From Nanobdellota archaeon (lineage in GTDB: Archaea; Nanoarchaeota; Nanoarchaeia; Parvarchaeales; Parvarchaeaceae): a stretch of 8,594 nucleotides of DNA. Shown here in pieces: positions 1 to 8,112 of this stretch (its first letter is position 1; each line of letters starts with the position of its first letter). The stretch is from contig JAJZOB010000035.1 of assembly GCA_021852135.1 (NCBI GenBank), forward strand, positions 1 through 8,594. Reading direction: 5' to 3'. A model generated the notes under the pieces. That model saw nothing but the letters and a program-made list of their open reading frames with translations, searched no databases and was not told the origin of the DNA. The position numbers and the translations under genes were made by a program.

Positions 1-1028
1 GTTGTACATGTAGTAGATGCTGAAAATGAGATTGAGGTAGTAGTACCTGCTTCTGCTGATCCTGAAGATGGGCTTGGAGTGTATGTTGTTGTACAGTCTG
101 GTGAAGCTGATGAATTTGTAAGAGTCTTAACTAAATAGGTATAAGTAGGGATACTTGATCCACTGATAGTATTTTGAAAAGAGATAGAAGAAGTTATGGA
201 ATGGTCTTCTGTGCCATCATAAGTCACATACCAAGTATAGCCGGAAGGAAGGTGGCTTTCTTCAAAAGTTGATAATAGAACTGACGGGGGGGTTACTCTT
301 TCATAATAAGTTACGTTAAATATTTCTGAGGAATTGGAATGAGCTGTGACTTTATATAAGCCAGCTGGAAGTGTTTTCAAGTAAGTTGCCTTCCCTTTTG
401 TAAGAGGTACTACTTCTGTTCCATTGATATATATGGAAACGTAATAGTCGTTTGTAGGTGCAATTACTGTGAAATTCGATTGAGTATTACTTGCTACTGA
501 GTTATTTGCATTGATTACTCCATTTAGGTATGATATTAATGGAGGGTGGAGGGTTACAATACCTAAAATCTCTGTTTCGCAGGTTCCGCCTGCGGAGTAT
601 TTTATTCCGTCTATGGAAACAGTGCTTCCAGAAGTGTTGCCTATAATAACTGTGTTAATCTCTGCATTTATAATTGTTAAATCTTCTGAAAATGAATTTA
701 TGCCTGCAGTATAATTCCCTATACGTGATAAGGAAGAAGGGTTGCTTTGGACGGTGTTGCTTGCAAATACGTTATAAATAAGCCCAGGGCTTCCTTCTGA
801 AACTGTTATTTTAAAAGTGTTTTGTTTAGAGTTAGTGCTTATATTCGTTACATTAGCATTGCATGCTACTGGCGAGCCGCTTCCTCCCGCTATTAAACCA
901 GATGGTAAAATTGCAAAATGGAATACTGAGCTTGTTATTACTACTCCTATAACAAAAAAGGCGATTAGCAGTATAATAACTATAAAATAATCAACTGCAC
1001 TTGTACCGTTTATTTTGTTACTATGCAT
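1..1028 (-). CDS. Large repeat-type surface protein with class III-like signal (partial, runs off left edge)
   Basis: The minus-strand frame stays open from an ATG at 1028 to position 1, giving about 342 visible residues with no stop, so the C-terminus lies outside the window. The N-terminus has a short polar stretch, then NGTSAVDYF and a hydrophobic helix (about residues 14-33). This resembles archaeal class III prepilin signals: possible cut after G8, acidic D13 at +5. The ectodomain is Ser/Thr/Asn-rich with many N-glycosylation sequons. It contains a PEGA-like beta segment (KGKATYLKTLPAGLYKVTAH) and, encoded near 211-270, a module with LPSGYTWYVTYDG that matches the LPSGTxW repeats of Thermoplasmata and ARMAN surface/thermopsin-type proteins. 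The start overlaps the end of the upstream 492-aa gene by 19 bp. A GGAGGA lies about 14 nt before the ATG, a rather long spacing. Role is inferred: adhesin or pilus-associated surface protein. Confidence 0.8.
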   Translation of the reverse strand, partial: MHSNKINGTSAVDYFIVIILLIAFFVIGVVITSSVFHFAILPSGLIAGGSGSPVACNANVTNISTNSKQNTFKITVSEGSPGLIYNVFASNTVQSNPSSLSRIGNYTAGINSFSEDLTIINAEINTVIIGNTSGSTVSIDGIKYSAGGTCETEILGIVTLHPPLISYLNGVINANNSVASNTQSNFTVIAPTNDYYVSIYINGTEVVPLTKGKATYLKTLPAGLYKVTAHSNSSEIFNVTYYERVTPPSVLLSTFEESHLPSGYTWYVTYDGTEDHSITSSISFQNTISGSSIPTYTYLVKTLTNSSASPDCTTTYTPSPSSGSAEAGTTTSISFSASTTCT

Positions 1029-2488
1029 ATATAAATAAGATTCCTCCCTAGAAAATCAGGTTTTGATATTCCTATCTCTTGTGGTAAAGACGAAAAGTAA
1101 GAAAATAATGATTGAGCACATTGTCCTATACCACTAGCGGCAAAGGTAGCCTCAGAAAGTTTTTCAGTGTAAAGAAGGGCATTTGGGGCCACATCATTTT
1201 TACACACCACGTTGTTGGAGCATTCCGCTGATCCAAATCCTGCAAGCGTTGCACCAACTACCAGTCCAGGATTTGATGGTGAAAGAAGCTTCGCGCCTAC
1301 GCCAGATAAAATTGCTCTTGAGCACTCATACTCTATACCGGCGCTAGGATAGTTGTTAAGAAATGTTGCAGGTTCGCATTCACTTGGCAGGCTTATTGAG
1401 CTTGGAGGGAATCTTGTACCAACAAGCGAATTTAAGTATACCATATATACCTGAGCTTTATTTATCGATTTGCTACTGTTCGGAAGCACAAACCCGCTAC
1501 TACTTGAATTGCTCACGTTTTTATAACTGAATATGACGTTGTCACCGGGCTTTAAATAATCTGCGTATGATTCATTTATTATAGATGTGCTTTTTACAGG
1601 TTCAGTCAAAACACACGAAGAAGGAGATTCGTATGAATTTGTCGTACTATCATATCCTACAGTGCAGTTATTCCCGTTGCAGAAATTAGTGTAAAGGTCT
1701 GTACATGAAGCAGTATTACCACTAATCGTTGAACATGTGTCTAAAGTAGTATTAAAGGAGCAACCCTGCGATGTTTCACATAAGTAACTAGATAGGTTCA
1801 TTGCAGCTGTCGGCGGTTTAGTCCCATTCAGAGGTATATATCTTATTGTGTTATATCCTTGTGTAAATGGCTGATAACCTGGTTGGCTCTTGCAGTTGAA
1901 ATAGTTTAATGAAAGCGCATCGCATAAACTTGGGTCACTTAAATCACACGAATATCCATTTAGATTTGAATTTGTTAATGGATCAGAGCAGGATTGAACA
2001 GCAGTATGATTAAGACAGCTTACTTCTGTTGTATAAGCATTGGTTCCAAGGTAATTTGTAAGGTTATTTATGGTTATATTTCGGTTTATATTAACATCAA
2101 CAACAGAGCACATCGCAGGAGAATTTGTAAGTACGGTTAGCCCTTGATTTGCGCCATACTGGTTCCAGCAACTAGTTAGGTCATTAGCTACTGTTGAAAA
2201 TACTTGCGAAGGCTGAGAGCCTGGTCCGTATCCTGCAGTTGCGGTCGTACATCCAAAAAGTGGTGGTGATATACCAAGCGTTTTAAGCGTGCTGCTTAGG
2301 CAGAACAACTTTGACACGCATAGTCCATTGTAATAAAAATTGGTAAATTCAGAGCTTACATAACAGATACTGCTGTTTGAAAGATTCACTCCAACCAATA
2401 GAAGATAACCTGCTATAGCAACTATGACTATTATGAATATTACTGCCAAAACTATGAATATAAAGCTCTCTCCAGGTGTCTCTGCCAT
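1010..2488 (-). CDS. Cys-rich, N-glycosylated membrane-anchored protein, 492 aa
   Basis: I do not recognise the family. The protein begins with MAETPGES and one strong hydrophobic helix (about residues 9-33). A roughly 455-residue ectodomain follows with 24 cysteines and more than ten NxS/T sequons, and no further obvious membrane span. The even cysteine count and sequons point to an exported, disulfide-bonded, glycosylated domain. The segment before the helix could be a prepilin-like signal (G6|E7) or simply a signal anchor. The extreme C-terminus, RNLIYICIVTK, resembles that of the neighbouring 296-aa protein (SRVFICIPNQ), so the two may be distant paralogs. The gene follows the 296-aa gene after a 61-bp gap that holds an AT-rich box, and it overlaps the downstream surface-protein gene by 19 bp. 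Surface-complex component is inference. Confidence 0.85.
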   Translation of the reverse strand: MAETPGESFIFIVLAVIFIIVIVAIAGYLLLVGVNLSNSSICYVSSEFTNFYYNGLCVSKLFCLSSTLKTLGISPPLFGCTTATAGYGPGSQPSQVFSTVANDLTSCWNQYGANQGLTVLTNSPAMCSVVDVNINRNITINNLTNYLGTNAYTTEVSCLNHTAVQSCSDPLTNSNLNGYSCDLSDPSLCDALSLNYFNCKSQPGYQPFTQGYNTIRYIPLNGTKPPTAAMNLSSYLCETSQGCSFNTTLDTCSTISGNTASCTDLYTNFCNGNNCTVGYDSTTNSYESPSSCVLTEPVKSTSIINESYADYLKPGDNVIFSYKNVSNSSSSGFVLPNSSKSINKAQVYMVYLNSLVGTRFPPSSISLPSECEPATFLNNYPSAGIEYECSRAILSGVGAKLLSPSNPGLVVGATLAGFGSAECSNNVVCKNDVAPNALLYTEKLSEATFAASGIGQCAQSLFSYFSSLPQEIGISKPDFLGRNLIYICIVTK

Positions 2489-2510
2489 TAATTAAGTAGT
2501 GTTTTCATTC

Positions 2511-2522
2511 AATAAATTAATA
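2511..2522 (-). promoter_or_regulatory. Putative TATA box for the 492-aa gene
   Basis: An AT-only stretch (minus strand ATTAATTTATT) lies 23-34 nt before the ATG at 2488, in a 61-bp gap. This spacing would give a leaderless mRNA. A second AT-rich tract at about 2532-2548 is an alternative. The gene may instead be read through from upstream. Confidence 0.35.
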
Positions 2523-2549
2523 TCCAATTCATTTTTTAATATAATTTAA

Positions 2550-3440
2550 TTATTGGTTTGGTATGCATATAAATACCCTGCTTTGACTGTATATCATGTA
2601 GTTGCTTAACTTTCCACATAGGGGCACATAATAGTTGCAGCCGCTGTTTTCATTTATTACGTTTAAAGACGGGTTGCCGTTGCTAAGAGAACTTATAGTT
2701 TCCCTGCTTTGATTTGCTGTTTCGTTTGAATAAGTGCATACTGATAAATCATTGATTATAGGTTGTTGGTACTGTGCGGTGTATCTACATTGGTCAATGA
2801 AGCTTATCTCACAGTTTTTTATTCCATTTGAAGGATATCCAAAATAGGTTATAGTATAGCTGGAATTTGAGAGTTTATCTGCTGGCTTTATATATGTCGC
2901 ATTGCCATCACTTCCGTTCGTTATAAAGACAACTTGCAATGGATATCTGCCATTATAATTGCTGTCAATATAACTTATTATTGCGGAATAGTTTATATTC
3001 TTGCTTTGACTTATCAAAGATCCTTTATAACAGTTGAATATTTGATCTATATTTTTTGCCGAAATAATCTGTGAACCTATACCTGCGTTTCCACCAGAAA
3101 ACAAGCTGAAACATGATGATGCTTGAGTATAAAATGAGGAGGCAAAACTAGCTGTTGATTTTTCATTAATGTTTGCAGTCTGAAGACAGTCTTTTTGGAC
3201 CTGTGCCGATTGTGTGGGATTTATAAGTACGTTTGAAAAGCCGAAGAAAGACGTTACGCTTGTAAATGGCGACAAAAAACTGTTTACAATTTTATACTGT
3301 GTAAACGCAGTAAAGCAGTTGATCCCAAAGCTTAGCGTGCCAAAAGACATTATTATAGAAAAAGAAACAACTGTTAGTATTATCCCAGCTATTATAACAA
3401 ATATAACAAACACTATCGTAAGGAGTATTCCTTCTTCCAT
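2550..3440 (-). CDS. Cys-rich membrane-anchored protein, 296 aa
   Basis: Family not recognised. The N-terminus, MEEG, leads directly into a long hydrophobic helix (about residues 5-31). The rest is an ectodomain rich in Ser, Asn and Tyr with ten cysteines and several NxS/T sequons. It ends with SRVFICIPNQ, close to the end of the 492-aa protein, and both have the same plan (short polar head, one helix, Cys-rich domain). Paralogy is therefore likely but not proven. The ATG directly follows the stop codon of the 53-aa gene. A good Shine-Dalgarno (GGTGGAGGT, about 3447-3455) sits six bases upstream inside that gene, which fixes this start and indicates co-translation. Topology suggests an outside-facing component of a cell-surface assembly; the exact role is unknown. 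Confidence 0.85.
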   Translation of the reverse strand: MEEGILLTIVFVIFVIIAGIILTVVSFSIIMSFGTLSFGINCFTAFTQYKIVNSFLSPFTSVTSFFGFSNVLINPTQSAQVQKDCLQTANINEKSTASFASSFYTQASSCFSLFSGGNAGIGSQIISAKNIDQIFNCYKGSLISQSKNINYSAIISYIDSNYNGRYPLQVVFITNGSDGNATYIKPADKLSNSSYTITYFGYPSNGIKNCEISFIDQCRYTAQYQQPIINDLSVCTYSNETANQSRETISSLSNGNPSLNVINENSGCNYYVPLCGKLSNYMIYSQSRVFICIPNQ

Positions 3441-3602
3441 TTAGGAACCTCCACCGAGAAGATTTCCAAAATAAGAAAATGGAGAGCTGCTGTGAGAGCT
3501 GGCGTAAAAGAGAATTACTATTAATCCTATGACTGCAAGGGCGGTTACTATAACTAGTATTATCCAGATAAGACGCCATTCTACACTTCCTTTTTTATTC
3601 AT
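3441..3602 (-). CDS. Small single-helix membrane protein, 53 aa, pilin-like head
   Basis: This short frame fills the gap between two larger genes. It reads MNKKGSVEWR, then a hydrophobic helix (about residues 11-33), then a Ser-rich tail ending NLLGGGS. The KKG|SVE head resembles a prepilin-peptidase site (basic residues, Gly, then an acidic residue near +3 before the helix), although the classical acidic residue is at +5. Its ATG is one base after the TGA of the 169-aa gene, and its TAA directly abuts the ATG of the 296-aa gene, whose Shine-Dalgarno is embedded in the GGGS codons. This spacing argues strongly that it is a real operon member. A longer overlapping frame at 3292-3579 lacks these signs. 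Function unknown: minor pilin-like subunit or membrane adaptor. Confidence 0.75.
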   Translation of the reverse strand: MNKKGSVEWRLIWIILVIVTALAVIGLIVILFYASSHSSSPFSYFGNLLGGGS

Positions 3603-3603
3603 A

Positions 3604-4113
3604 TCATTGACCTATACATGCTGGACAATAAGGTCCATCTCCTGATATACACGCCGTAACGTTTATTGCGCAATTTTGTATATCTGTAGCGTTGTTTGCA
3701 ACTATAGTGCTTTCAGAGCAGCTGAACAGATCAGCAGTATTTGTGGGAGAAATGGTACTACACGAATTGGTTATGTTAGCAGGAGGACTTGTTATGCAGT
3801 TCTGTACTGCTGATTCGCTTCCCTGGCCGTTTGTCCAAAGTTGATAGTAACACCAATGTCTTATGCAGGTCTGCTGTGCGGTAGCCGCATTATAACATGC
3901 ATTCTCATCATAACATCTGAATAATGAAGTGCCCTCCATTCTGTTTGCATACCCATATTCTGCGCTGGTAAACTGGTTTTGCAGCAGAGCGGTTGAAGAA
4001 TCACAGCCTATAGGAAAAATTGATGAATAATTATTGTAGAAAAGGAAAAACATTGTAAGAGCTATGATTATTCCGACAAGCACTTCAAAGAAAAGAAATT
4101 GTTCAACATCCAT
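3604..4113 (-). CDS. Cys-rich membrane-anchored protein, 169 aa; first gene of the cluster
   Basis: Family not recognised. MDVEQ is followed by a hydrophobic helix (about residues 6-27), then a compact ectodomain of about 140 residues with twelve cysteines. These include a C-x4-C pair near residue 70, C-x4-C in TCIRHWC, and a terminal CPAC. High even cysteine content and sequons such as NNAT and NITN suggest an exported disulfide-rich domain. The terminal CxxC could be redox-active, but there is no thioredoxin-like context. It is the first gene of the tightly packed minus-strand cluster. A TATA-like box lies 19-29 nt before the ATG, consistent with a leaderless transcript, and an IS605-like element ends only about 10 bp upstream of that box. 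Confidence 0.85.
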   Translation of the reverse strand: MDVEQFLFFEVLVGIIIALTMFFLFYNNYSSIFPIGCDSSTALLQNQFTSAEYGYANRMEGTSLFRCYDENACYNAATAQQTCIRHWCYYQLWTNGQGSESAVQNCITSPPANITNSCSTISPTNTADLFSCSESTIVANNATDIQNCAINVTACISGDGPYCPACIGQ

Positions 4114-4131
4114 TTGATTCTTAGCCAGTAT

Positions 4132-4142
4132 TAATTTAAATC
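4132..4142 (-). promoter_or_regulatory. Putative TATA box for the Cys-rich surface-protein cluster
   Basis: Minus-strand GATTTAAATTA lies 19-29 nt upstream of the ATG at 4113, the normal position of an archaeal TATA box for a leaderless transcript. The left end of the IS605-like element begins about ten bases further upstream, so the insertion has replaced whatever lay beyond the core promoter. Confidence 0.5.
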
Positions 4143-4150
4143 ATTTTTAT

Positions 4151-4497
4151 CAAAGGTGAGCGGGAAAACCCATGCTCTTTAGAGGTGGGATGAAAGCGAA
4201 CTGAAAGAATGGAAAACTATAAAGGGATGGAAGGCGTATCAACAGCATCAATAATGAAGTCTATCCTGAAAAAGAATAGACCGATGCTTAAGATAAAAGG
4301 TTGTTGACTAAACGTAAAATCTTAAAAAGGTTAGTCGAAATATCAATCAAATACTTCTCAAAAAGAAGTTACCCTCGGACAGAGGGGAAGTCAAGCCCGT
4401 CGAGAATCTGACCTATACACTGCAGGAAACTGCATGCAAGTCGTGTCTGTGAAGCAGGAACCGGAAGCCCATGAATTCATTCAGGGGAGGATGTCAC
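4151..4497 (+). mobile_element. Transposase-less IS200/IS605 (IS1341)-like element, MITE/PATE type
   Basis: The left part has GGGAAAACCC, then a hairpin at 4169-4189 (CCCA..CTC-TTTA-GAG..TGGG), then ATGAAAGCG, the look of an IS200/IS605 left end. The right part has GTGAAGCAGGAA, then a hairpin at 4468-4486 (CCC-a-TGAA, loop TTCA, TTCA-GGG), then GGAGGATGTCAC. This is the usual right end that follows tnpB genes. One frame over the right end reads SRVCEAGTGSP and another reads SVKQEP; both resemble TnpB tails. No TnpA or TnpB gene fits inside, so this is a non-autonomous or internally deleted copy. TTTAT at 4146-4150 may be the target/TAM sequence; such elements make no target duplication, so the ends are approximate. 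It sits between the L15e gene end and the promoter of the 169-aa gene. Confidence 0.65.
4304..4497 (+). ncRNA. Possible omega-RNA-like structured RNA within the element
   Basis: The right half of the element can fold into consecutive hairpins. These are TTGACTAA/TTAGTCGA (4304-4338), ACTTCT/AGAAGT (4353-4369), CCCTC/GAGGG (4372-4386), GTCA/TGAC (4390-4412), TGCAG-GAAA-CTGCA with a GNRA tetraloop (4421-4434), and the end hairpin (4468-4486). In IS605/IS1341 elements this is where the omega RNA that guides TnpB is made, its guide lying just past the right end (here from about 4498). Transcription is not shown; the call rests on position and fold. Without a local TnpB it could only work with a protein supplied in trans, or be a dead remnant. 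Confidence 0.4.
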
Positions 4498-4512
4498 AAA
4501 AGATTAACATAG

Positions 4513-4519
4513 AAAAAAA
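4513..4519 (-). terminator. T7 run downstream of L15e
   Basis: On the minus strand seven consecutive T residues occur about 45 nt after the L15e stop codon, followed by more T-rich sequence. Archaeal RNA polymerase terminates at such oligo-T tracts, so L15e transcription probably ends before entering the IS605-like element. Confidence 0.35.
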
Positions 4520-4562
4520 TCCACAATGTTCTACAAAAGATAAAGTAGTTTTAACAAATATT

Positions 4563-4973
4563 TTATTTACCTTTTTTATTGTCTACCATTATTACTTCAA
4601 ACCACTTGTTCTTTCCGTCTTCTATTATGAAATAAGATCCGATGACCTTCATGTTTTTGTACACTTTTAAAGCTCTGTTCCTTGCTATGCCCTCCTTGCT
4701 TATCGATAGTTTATAGTATAATCCGCTTTTACTCGGTCTTCTTGCATGGTTTGCTCTTGGTCTCCTGAAATCTCCTTTGCTTACTCTGACTCTTACGATT
4801 ATGTATCCTTGTTTTGCCTTATACCCTATCGTCTTGGCCTTTGCAAGTTTTGTCGGCCTTTCTATTCTTTGCAGTATAGGTTGATTTCTTACCTCCTGCA
4901 AGATTTCCTTTTTTCTTTCATCGTTCTTGTACAATGCCATTTCATTTGCATGTATGTATTTATATGATCCCAT
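4563..4973 (-). CDS. rpl15e: 50S ribosomal protein L15e, short form (136 aa)
   Basis: L15e is an archaeal/eukaryotic protein of the large ribosomal subunit that binds 23S rRNA. Recognisable family blocks occur in order: an N-terminal YKYI helix, a region ending in RIERPTKL (about residues 36-43), GYKAKQGYIIVRVRV (about 50-64), a basic RRPRANHARRPSKSG (about 70-84), and GSYFIIEDGKNKWFEVIMVD near the end. Family members are usually about 190 residues; this one stops right after EVIMVD with NKKGK. It lacks the C-terminal tail of roughly 50-55 residues that contains the conserved HRGR-x-FRGLT-type region. Translating past the stop in all frames does not recover that tail. The truncation may be a lineage trait or a deletion linked to the neighbouring element. 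A TATA-like box lies about 27 nt before the start, so the mRNA is probably leaderless. Confidence 0.9.
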   Translation of the reverse strand: MGSYKYIHANEMALYKNDERKKEILQEVRNQPILQRIERPTKLAKAKTIGYKAKQGYIIVRVRVSKGDFRRPRANHARRPSKSGLYYKLSISKEGIARNRALKVYKNMKVIGSYFIIEDGKNKWFEVIMVDNKKGK

Positions 4974-5018: not shown

Positions 5019-5456
5019 TCAATTGATTATGCTCCCACTAGATGCTATCACAGGAGAAGAGGAAATATTCTTAGGTGTATAATATATAAAGCCGTTTCCG
5101 GTGAACGAACTTCCAAGCGACACAGCGGTTAAATTGCATTCGCTGTACTCCAAAGCAGGAATATACGTTTTTGAACACACAAAATTTGTATAGTTAGTAC
5201 CAGATATTACTATGGATATGCCGTCTATATTCACATTTTCATTTAATAGATTCTGGAATTCTATGTAGAAGAGGGATTTTGACGAAATATACCCTTGTTG
5301 TACTATTCTGAAGCCAGGAAATCCCGAATAGCTAGACTGGGTTGTGCCCCCTGTCAAGCTGGGGAAAAAAGTAAATATTATATAAAATATTGATCCTATT
5401 ACTATTATCGCTAAGCTGTAGATTGCGATCATTTCAAGAGATTGCTGACCTTTCAT
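5019..5456 (-). CDS. Type IV pilin-like protein with class III signal, 145 aa
   Basis: The N-terminus MKGQQSLEMI is a classic archaeal class III (type IV prepilin) signal. The predicted cut lies between G3 and Q4, leaving Q-Q-S-L-E with the conserved Glu (E8) at +5, followed by a hydrophobic helix (about residues 9-30) that would form the filament core. Such proteins are processed by an archaeal prepilin peptidase (EppA/PibD family) and assembled outside the membrane. The remaining 115 residues form a small beta-rich, Ser/Asn-rich domain with two cysteines (C94 and C107 approximately) and sequons NYTN and NLTA. Size is typical of archaeal minor pilins. It is transcribed alone, with a TATA-like box about 23 nt upstream. 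Pilus, adhesin or archaellum-like role cannot be told apart here. Confidence 0.88.
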   Translation of the reverse strand: MKGQQSLEMIAIYSLAIIVIGSIFYIIFTFFPSLTGGTTQSSYSGFPGFRIVQQGYISSKSLFYIEFQNLLNENVNIDGISIVISGTNYTNFVCSKTYIPALEYSECNLTAVSLGSSFTGNGFIYYTPKNISSSPVIASSGSIIN

Positions 5457-5586: not shown

Positions 5587-5658
5587 AGCCTTGGGTGGGT
5601 TTCGAACCCACAACCTCCTGCTTACGAAGCAGATGCTCTGCCATTGAGCTACCAAGGC
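5587..5658 (-). tRNA. tRNA-Thr (anticodon CGT)
   Basis: The minus strand folds into a complete 72-nt cloverleaf. It has a perfect 7-bp acceptor stem (GCCTTGG/CCAAGGC), T8-A9, a 4-bp D stem (GCTC/GAGC) with GG in the loop, and an anticodon stem TCTGC/GCAGG. The loop TTCGTAA gives anticodon CGT (plus-strand acg at 5624-5626). The variable loop is AGGTT and the T arm is GTGGG-TTCGAAA-CCCAC. It would read the Thr codon ACG. G1-C72, C2-G71 and anticodon bases G35-U36 match known Thr identity elements; the discriminator is U. CCA is not encoded and there is no intron. A TATA-like box precedes it by 27 nt, and T-rich sequence (TTTTGCC, CCCTTTT) follows as a probable termination region. Confidence 0.95.
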
Positions 5659-7605: not shown

Positions 7606-8112
7606 TTAACTACACTGGGGCAGGGATTCATTTACGGAAAGGCATATATAATTTAATATCTCATTGTAAGCAGTTTCATTGTCTGTAAATCCTCCTACTT
7701 TATAGTATTTTCCGTTGAATACAATTAAAGGCACTTTGTTAACAGCTATTTGGTTGAAAAGTAATACAGCAGAATCAGGTATGTTATTAGTTATATTATT
7801 GTTATAAGCTGATATGTTGAATTTCCATGCGCAGAAATAGCCACTGTAAAAAGTGTTGTTTGACCAGAGGCCAAAAAGAGAAGTCACGTTTTGAAATGAA
7901 TTAACCGTAGACGTGCAGGTTCTGCAGTTATCTGCATAGTAAATAACAAATGACGGCATGTTTGGTGAGCAGAGCCCGGACATATTTAAATCAGCTTTGT
8001 GGAAGGAGTATAATCTATTTAGAGAGTAGTTCTGATAAAAAAAGAATATTGACAGCATTACCAATACAAGTATTATGGCTAAGTAAAGGTAGTATCTTGT
8101 TTTAGTTAGCAT
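7606..8112 (-). CDS. Membrane-anchored thioredoxin-fold protein with CxxC, 168 aa
   Basis: A hydrophobic helix (about residues 8-26) anchors the protein, with the rest outside. The thioredoxin-type signature is clear: a beta strand and active site SFVIYYADNCRTC (C63-R-T-C66) and, about 60 residues later, NKVPLIVFNGKYYKVGGF, in which P128 would be the cis-proline opposite the active site. Four more cysteines (C48, C94, C157, C167) may form structural or relay disulfides. The CRTC dipeptide differs from thioredoxin (CGPC) and DsbA (CPHC), so redox direction cannot be stated. Likely role: a surface disulfide oxidoreductase. That would fit a genome whose nearby secreted proteins carry 10-24 cysteines. 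The start overlaps the end of the upstream gene by 11 bp, and the winged-helix gene follows three bases after the stop. Confidence 0.82.
   Translation of the reverse strand: MLTKTRYYLYLAIILVLVMLSIFFFYQNYSLNRLYSFHKADLNMSGLCSPNMPSFVIYYADNCRTCTSTVNSFQNVTSLFGLWSNNTFYSGYFCAWKFNISAYNNNITNNIPDSAVLLFNQIAVNKVPLIVFNGKYYKVGGFTDNETAYNEILNYICLSVNESLPQCS

Follow-up and report, generated by a model that had tools for sequence, protein, structure and literature searches.

A transposase-free IS605-type element in a DPANN archaeon resembles haloarchaeal PATEs and retains a putative TnpB omega-RNA region

The omega-RNA of TnpB is a structured RNA that overlaps the 3' end of tnpB and ends at the right end of the element, and stand-alone omega-RNAs are known for IscB. 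Transposase-free relatives of IS200/IS605 elements were described in Haloquadratum walsbyi as palindrome-associated elements (PATEs), which in the available account carry subterminal palindromes resembling those of IS605-type elements, have neither terminal inverted repeats nor target duplications and are too short for a transposase; one of them, HqIRS71, has kept part of the C-terminal coding region (PMC3119063). The same account reported strain-specific insertions in Haloquadratum even though all IS200-type genes of one strain were pseudogenes, and already raised for haloarchaea the puzzle of how elements of this kind survive when TnpA is scarce. A 271-nt PATE-like sequence of Halanaerobium hydrogeniformans has a plan similar to that of the locus described here, comprising a left-end hairpin, the final 58 nt of tnpB and a complete right end, but it is a single copy in a bacterium and the available part of its account includes no treatment of an RNA (PMC7290912). 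The omega-RNA of archaeal IS200/IS605 TnpB has been described, in the part of the source available, as a structured RNA that runs over the tnpB 3' end to the right end (PMC12558985), an arrangement that recurs at our locus without tnpB. The literature searched, mostly at abstract level and with few subscription papers, held no description of guide-RNA-only IS605 elements.

The window is the whole stretch of DNA analysed here, 8,594 nucleotides in length. An earlier note on it had proposed a PATE-like element at 4151–4497 with IS200/IS605-style hairpins near both ends, lying between L15e and a surface-protein gene of a DPANN-type genome, and had named further copies, empty sites and an autonomous relative as what to look for. 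The host assignment was borne out, as the nearest genomes were metagenome-assembled genomes (MAGs) of Ca. Parvarchaeota/Nanoarchaeota, the nearest of all (G001) sharing 70% of sampled 31-mers with the window. The element and its surroundings comprise the following.

3604–4113, minus strand: gene for a short membrane/pilin-like protein (ORF without a Pfam match; "pilin-like" is our reading)
4144–4150, plus strand: TTTTTAT with core TTTAT, the target of the insertion; expected to serve TnpB as target-adjacent motif as well
4151–4497, plus strand: whole element, 347 bp, of non-autonomous IS200/IS605 type (PATE), recognized by empty sites, other copies and shared ends
4151–4211, plus strand: left end; 4146–4223 is about 75–92% identical to left ends of tnpB elements and mini-elements (tnpB-less copies) of the genus
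4169–4189, plus strand: left-end hairpin CCCAT-g-CTC-TTTA-GAG-GTGGG, recurring with changed stems in relatives
4456–4497, plus strand: right end with hairpin 4468–4487 and terminal AGGATGTCAC, sharing 88–93% identity with the right ends of G001 tnpB copies
4498–4517, plus strand: host flank 3' of the right end, the predicted guide segment by analogy with omega-RNA anatomy
4563–4973, minus strand: ribosomal protein L15e gene (PF00827, E 1.4e-35)

Several short secreted or pilin-like membrane proteins are encoded around L15e (1010–4113, 5019–5456 and 7606–8112), five of which were scanned and gave no Pfam match, and a tRNA-Thr (CGT) gene lies at 5587–5658 on the minus strand.

A search of 55 genomes located the L15e gene in 52, and 30 loci were taken from these, of which 29 were compared with the window and one (L158) was left out. 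In all 30 sequences compared, window included, L15e and the pilin-like ORF were adjacent, so the earlier placement between these two genes was right. The gap between them was 449 bp in the window and 448 bp in both G001 and G002, in comparison to 37–148 bp in all 27 other relatives; subtraction of 347 bp from the window gap leaves 102 bp, which compares with 99 bp in G027 and 106 bp in G003. When 4150 was joined to 4498, the flanks aligned across the junction to the empty site of G003 and less well to that of G026. The joined-flank alignment with G003 and the gap lengths indicate that 4151–4497 is an insertion directly 3' of TTTTTAT without target duplication, and the boundaries given in the earlier note proved exact to the base. 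The empty sites of G003 and G027 themselves contain TTTTTAT, and orthologues of the element were found in G001 and G002 at 98% identity (BLASTN). Comparison of these loci shows that an ancestor common to the window, G001 and G002 had already acquired the insertion 3' of TTTTTAT. Across 45 distinct left-end contexts, with the window and its G001 orthologue counted apart, T occurred at −9 in 43 and at −8 in all 45, within TTTAT, and a common sequence further upstream of TTTAT was absent; the element therefore lies 3' of a fixed short target, as IS200/IS605 elements do.

The insertion left undamaged a TTTAAAT box at 4134–4140 upstream of the pilin-like gene, which we read from its sequence as a TATA box. 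The 98% conservation in G001 and G002 at a site just upstream of this box could be explained if the element, in company with a TnpB-like protein, acted as a domesticated guide RNA controlling a host gene, with the neighbouring pilin-like operon as a candidate target, and TnpB-derived repressors are known. We regard this as very unlikely, as the same site was empty in all 27 other relatives compared, copies elsewhere have unrelated flanks and no TnpB is linked to the element.

The likeness to PATEs suspected in the earlier note fits the published definition as its available text gives it (PMC3119063). Palindromes lie near both termini of 4151–4497, the empty-site alignment contains no duplicated flank, and terminal inverted repeats are lacking, the inverted pairs near the ends being weak only (for example 16 nt at 75%, with arms outside the element but for one base). 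Its 347 bp are too short for a transposase and hold a TnpB C-terminal remnant only, and element-free sites together with several copies attest mobility. In contrast to the Haloquadratum PATEs as described there, the host is a DPANN archaeon and we read the interior as an omega-RNA with covarying helices, accompanied by a promoter-like box. With its empty site, target and relatives, the locus provides a clean natural PATE case in a small-genome archaeal lineage. The proposed subterminal hairpins also found support at both ends, as the left one recurs in relatives and the right one (4468–4487) is maintained by compensatory changes. In 25 of 44 left-end contexts no more than 5 of 100 mononucleotide shuffles folded as well as the left hairpin. 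The two window ends folded alone as DNA were unexceptional (z −1.13 and −0.36), and support for the end hairpins is thus comparative.

Both ends are common to the tnpB-only (IS1341-type) IS200/IS605 elements of the genus, such as L065, which have the same target motif, promoter box and omega-RNA core but differ from our element in possessing tnpB and a longer RNA interior. The ends that IS200/IS605 derivatives share with tnpA and/or tnpB relatives were therefore found through tnpB relatives; as none of these has tnpA, the autonomous relative was recovered only in part and a fully autonomous one is missing. A BLASTN search with 4130–4520 at E 0.01 returned matches in 30 of 141 genomes, those outside the family all being weak (E 1e-4 to 0.01), and 4283–4497 was matched at 1e-5 in 12 of 28 genus genomes, several of them via tnpB elements. 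Besides the orthologues, the multiple copies anticipated in the earlier note included a full-length copy of 84% identity on C14 of G023, with many further partial matches elsewhere. Overall, G023 had six mini-element-type matches (C14, C1, C7, C23 and two on C18, one of the latter at a contig edge), G015 had three partial matches and G001 had two sites. Flank identity for copies at other sites was 0.10–0.43, and the unrelated flanks of the window and four G023 copies (0.10–0.35) indicate that these occupy different sites. A plasmid collection searched with the element gave no match, and no viral contigs carried the core RNA pattern.

The earlier note had stated that neither TnpA nor TnpB lies inside. 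This holds in that there is no transposase gene, but it overlooked a TnpB C-terminal/omega-RNA segment and a promoter-like box, which belong to the following interior features.

4211–4224, plus strand: BRE/TATA-like promoter box GGAAAACTATAAAG, lying within the left end shortly after its hairpin
4259–4281, plus strand: hairpin H1 (GTCTAT/ATAGAC), of the mini-element type only; paired in 6 of 6 copies with letters, one pair varying on one side
4284–4497, plus strand: omega-RNA-like region, the putative guide-RNA scaffold for TnpB, which terminates at the right end; read from its conserved core, covariance model R1 and covariation
4353–4369, plus strand: hairpin H3 (ACTTCT/AGAAGT), paired in 8 of 8 copies with letters; 2 of 6 pairs changed on both sides
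4369–4452, plus strand: TnpB C-terminal coding remnant (LPSDRGEVKPVEN...), read from its frame in comparison with the intact TnpB at 427–1719 of L065; frame broken by indels in other copies
4372–4386, plus strand: hairpin H4 (CCCTC GGACA GAGGG), the core omega-RNA hairpin; 99.3% of cells paired and 5 of 5 pairs changed on both sides in 34 sequences
4422–4433, plus strand: hairpin H5 (GCAG GAAA CTGC), with one pair changed on both sides from G-C to A-U in 2 cells, and 2 cells unpaired

The promoter-like box reads GGAAAAC-TATAAA, a BRE/TATA-like sequence of archaeal type. A TATA-like string was found in 31 of 43 left-end contexts, where mononucleotide shuffles predict 6.4; some few of these strings (for example in L005 and L032) are not the left-end box. 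In all 7 contexts with a located tnpB ATG the box lay 26–30 nt before it, and a mini-element RNA driven from this box would start near 4245.

Segment 4284–4455 was the best conserved between copies (0.75–0.87), in comparison to only 0.33–0.70 for the left end of four G023 copies, three of which were rearranged. A protein-coding cause for the conservation of the mini-elements was rejected, as frame-shifting indels separate the copies; these indels sit in or beside hairpin loops. In the three rearranged copies (L050, L051 and L052 on C1, C7 and C23) the stretch corresponding to 4185–4201 of the window, 3' of the left hairpin, was inverted, and the same rearrangement was present at all three sites.

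Nine tnpB-less copies were used to build a covariance model (R1). In a scan of 234 genomes of the class it matched 19, of which 14 belong to the genus, one more to the family and four to other families. Those matches that are tnpB 3' ends scored 30–71 bits against R1, and the interior thus has the homology to a tnpB 3'-end RNA region ending at the right end that is expected of a TnpB omega-RNA. It also has the conserved secondary structure. In 13 tnpB-less copies, 94.7% of the cells in the named helices were paired against 91.5 in shuffles, and 14 cells were changed on both sides against 6.8, a value reached by 0 of 500 shuffles; the covariation score was above all 500, and two of the five measures were not above shuffles (reached by 117 and 196 of 500). 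A larger alignment took 34 R1 matches from as many sources, which we chose among the loci, and leans towards structure because it was fitted to the model; in it 93.7% of cells paired and 111 cells were changed on both sides against 30.2 in shuffles (0 of 500), with far lower scores for slid controls. Part of the covariation may stem from TnpB coding or from DNA hairpin function. The corresponding RNA of the window folded moderately (z −1.20 over 350 nt and −2.27 over 261 nt), and z was −4.80 for the RNA region of L065, an intact tnpB element, and −4.70 for that of a G023 mini-element. H4 was partly lost in the decayed copy on C7 of G001. Taken as a comparison of sequences, these results show the interior to be homologous to the RNA region at the tnpB 3' end, with covarying helices; an RNA of the element may also be expressed and functional.

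The tnpB-less copies at different sites have features in common that tnpB elements lack. H1 and the adjoining spacer are common to the copy on C37 of G001, G002 and four G023 copies, and tnpB elements, to which HMM matches begin at model position 56 or later and do not cover H1, are without both. H3 occurs in the H1-bearing copies and additionally on C7 of G001 and in one more, the fifth, G023 copy. The H5 segment is common to the tnpB-less copies including those of G015, and both H3 and this segment are likewise missing from tnpB elements. Independent deletion of tnpB at each site was rejected on this account, and the shared features show by comparison that the tnpB-less form itself spread to several sites after tnpB loss. 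The core pattern was found in 11 stretches in 4 MAGs. Ten of these, one of which starts at a contig edge, had no TnpB match at 1e-3, and the 11th (L165) had only fragments of another TnpB copy more than 1 kb away (tblastn with one genus TnpB); a search among them for exactly this RNA variant in a tnpB element found none.

Four loci matching R1 in other families were opened. One (L215, in G161) was a tnpB 3' end, and the other three (L214 in G199, L216 in G207 and L219 in G056) had no match to genus TnpB within about 1.5 kb, all TnpB-domain (PF07282) matches of these three genomes lying on other contigs than the opened loci. By coordinates alone, a TNB domain immediately precedes a second match in G199 (C20), and a partial one precedes one of the G056 matches (C4). 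The RNA-core copy in L216 sits between two tRNA genes. G161 had five R1 matches (C8, C9 and C12) and one TNB-domain match, one of the other matches being at a contig edge.

Y1 TnpA genes turned up in 2 of 28 genus genomes; a check of G001, G015 and G023 found none. The two genomes with TnpA (G008 and G009) were rejected as donors, as their loci have neither a left nor a right end of this type and the TnpB of G008 is 33% identical to the genus IS1341 TnpB; no TnpA-bearing element with these ends was found among the 28 genus genomes. TnpB was intact, being open to the stop codon, in G003 and G030 and probably intact in G005, where it is open to the last codon read, and the 430-aa protein of L065 (G003 C27) has OrfB_IS605, Cas12f1-like TNB and HTH domains. 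In G015 a stop occurs at codon 30, G023 C22 is frameshifted near the N-terminus, G002 C24 and G001 C4 are frameshifted, G001 C16 is open with an in-frame internal deletion and a contig edge truncates G001 C14. The four mini-element MAGs, all incomplete drafts, therefore yielded no demonstrably intact close TnpB, and this is the main weakness of a TnpB step in trans.

Our analysis points to 4151–4497 as probably a non-autonomous IS605 PATE that has lost nearly all of tnpB, has kept the left end, promoter, omega-RNA and right end, and is served in trans. Y1 TnpA acting in trans would peel out the element and paste it as single-stranded DNA by way of the end hairpins, and the internal promoter would drive an RNA of about 250 nt, the last bases of which would be host flank after 4497. 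TnpB from another element would then bind this RNA and cut the empty donor site beside TTTAT, and repair would copy the element back into the donor site; so understood, the element would be a guide-RNA-only parasite of tnpB elements. If TnpB does serve in trans, this would help to explain the persistence of such elements where TnpA is scarce, and the locus suggests that some transposase-free IS605 derivatives are carriers of a guide RNA and not empty shells.

Alternatively, the element may be an ordinary PATE without RNA function, that is, an internally deleted IS1341 element with leftover tnpB 3' sequence that formerly moved by its ends alone. Haloarchaeal PATEs have been described in this way in the available text (PMC3119063), many copies here are truncated or decaying, some of them at fixed sites, and no intact close TnpB was seen in the MAGs that carry the mini-elements. 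Some shorter copies also lack the RNA core (L068, L069 and L070), so the core is unnecessary for the presence of an element. Against this reading, the core is better conserved than the left end, compensatory changes occur among tnpB-less copies, a promoter-like box is maintained and the same RNA has tnpB-less copies in three other families. This explanation is a serious possibility, which we nevertheless hold to be less than probable.

Scanning of the window with Rfam at the gathering score returned only a tRNA and no match within the element. Below threshold, positions 1–130 of the HgcC model (RF00062) aligned to 4382–4508 at 20 bits (E 0.0094–0.019), where the gathering score is 50 bits; a known structural RNA across the whole region was rejected, as HgcC covers only this part and falls below threshold. 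HgcC is an orphan archaeal RNA family, the function of which was unresolved in a 2017 paper, and in the available parts of its accounts it has, like our element, a terminal hairpin followed by GGAGGAGGUCA (PMC4247193, PMC5732400). HgcC1–3 of T. kodakarensis, three of its five HgcC RNAs by dRNA-seq, were reported in the available text as sense transcription within transposase genes, with HgcC4–5 elsewhere (PMC4247193), which gives HgcC the look of a transposon-derived RNA. That the element is an immobile resident cellular RNA of HgcC type would agree with the full-length match at 20 bits, yet it is already contradicted by the empty site and is hard to reconcile with several insertions and with a transposon-derived HgcC; we give it next to no credence.

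The link between the element and HgcC is weak. HgcC matched three of ten other loci at 22–27 bits and gave no match in the other seven, six of which are from this genus, and it also matched below cut-off in a bacterium among the controls. R1 in turn matched 4 of 15 HgcC loci and none of the ten in G092, a small-genome archaeon of another family. G092 has ten HgcC matches (L221, L225, L227 and L229–L235), two of them above cut-off, with no TnpB match in the surrounding sequence examined and with TNB-domain matches on other contigs. The terminal hairpin of HgcC in the G092 loci resembles an IS605 right end. It can be suggested tentatively that HgcC is an archaeal TnpB omega-RNA, and the element thereby yields a testable proposal on this orphan RNA. 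In its widest form the proposal would be that DPANN archaea carry guide-RNA-only IS605 elements (left end, promoter, omega-RNA and right end) which lack their own tnpA and tnpB and rely on TnpB in trans against loss, and that HgcC is likewise an archaeal TnpB omega-RNA whose transposase-independent copies are guide-only elements; as a whole we consider this rather unlikely.

Two further observations concern the diversity and decay of such insertions. On C14 of G023, L120 1921–2160 contains a mini-element of a second type, which has the same ends and, in an otherwise different interior, a CTCTC-GGACA-GAGAG hairpin; this suggests that a single genome harbours more than one lineage of guide-RNA-only elements. 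Additionally, L057 2264–2480 of G001 and L073 3582–3667 of G003 appear to be one orthologous old insertion that has decayed differently in each genome.
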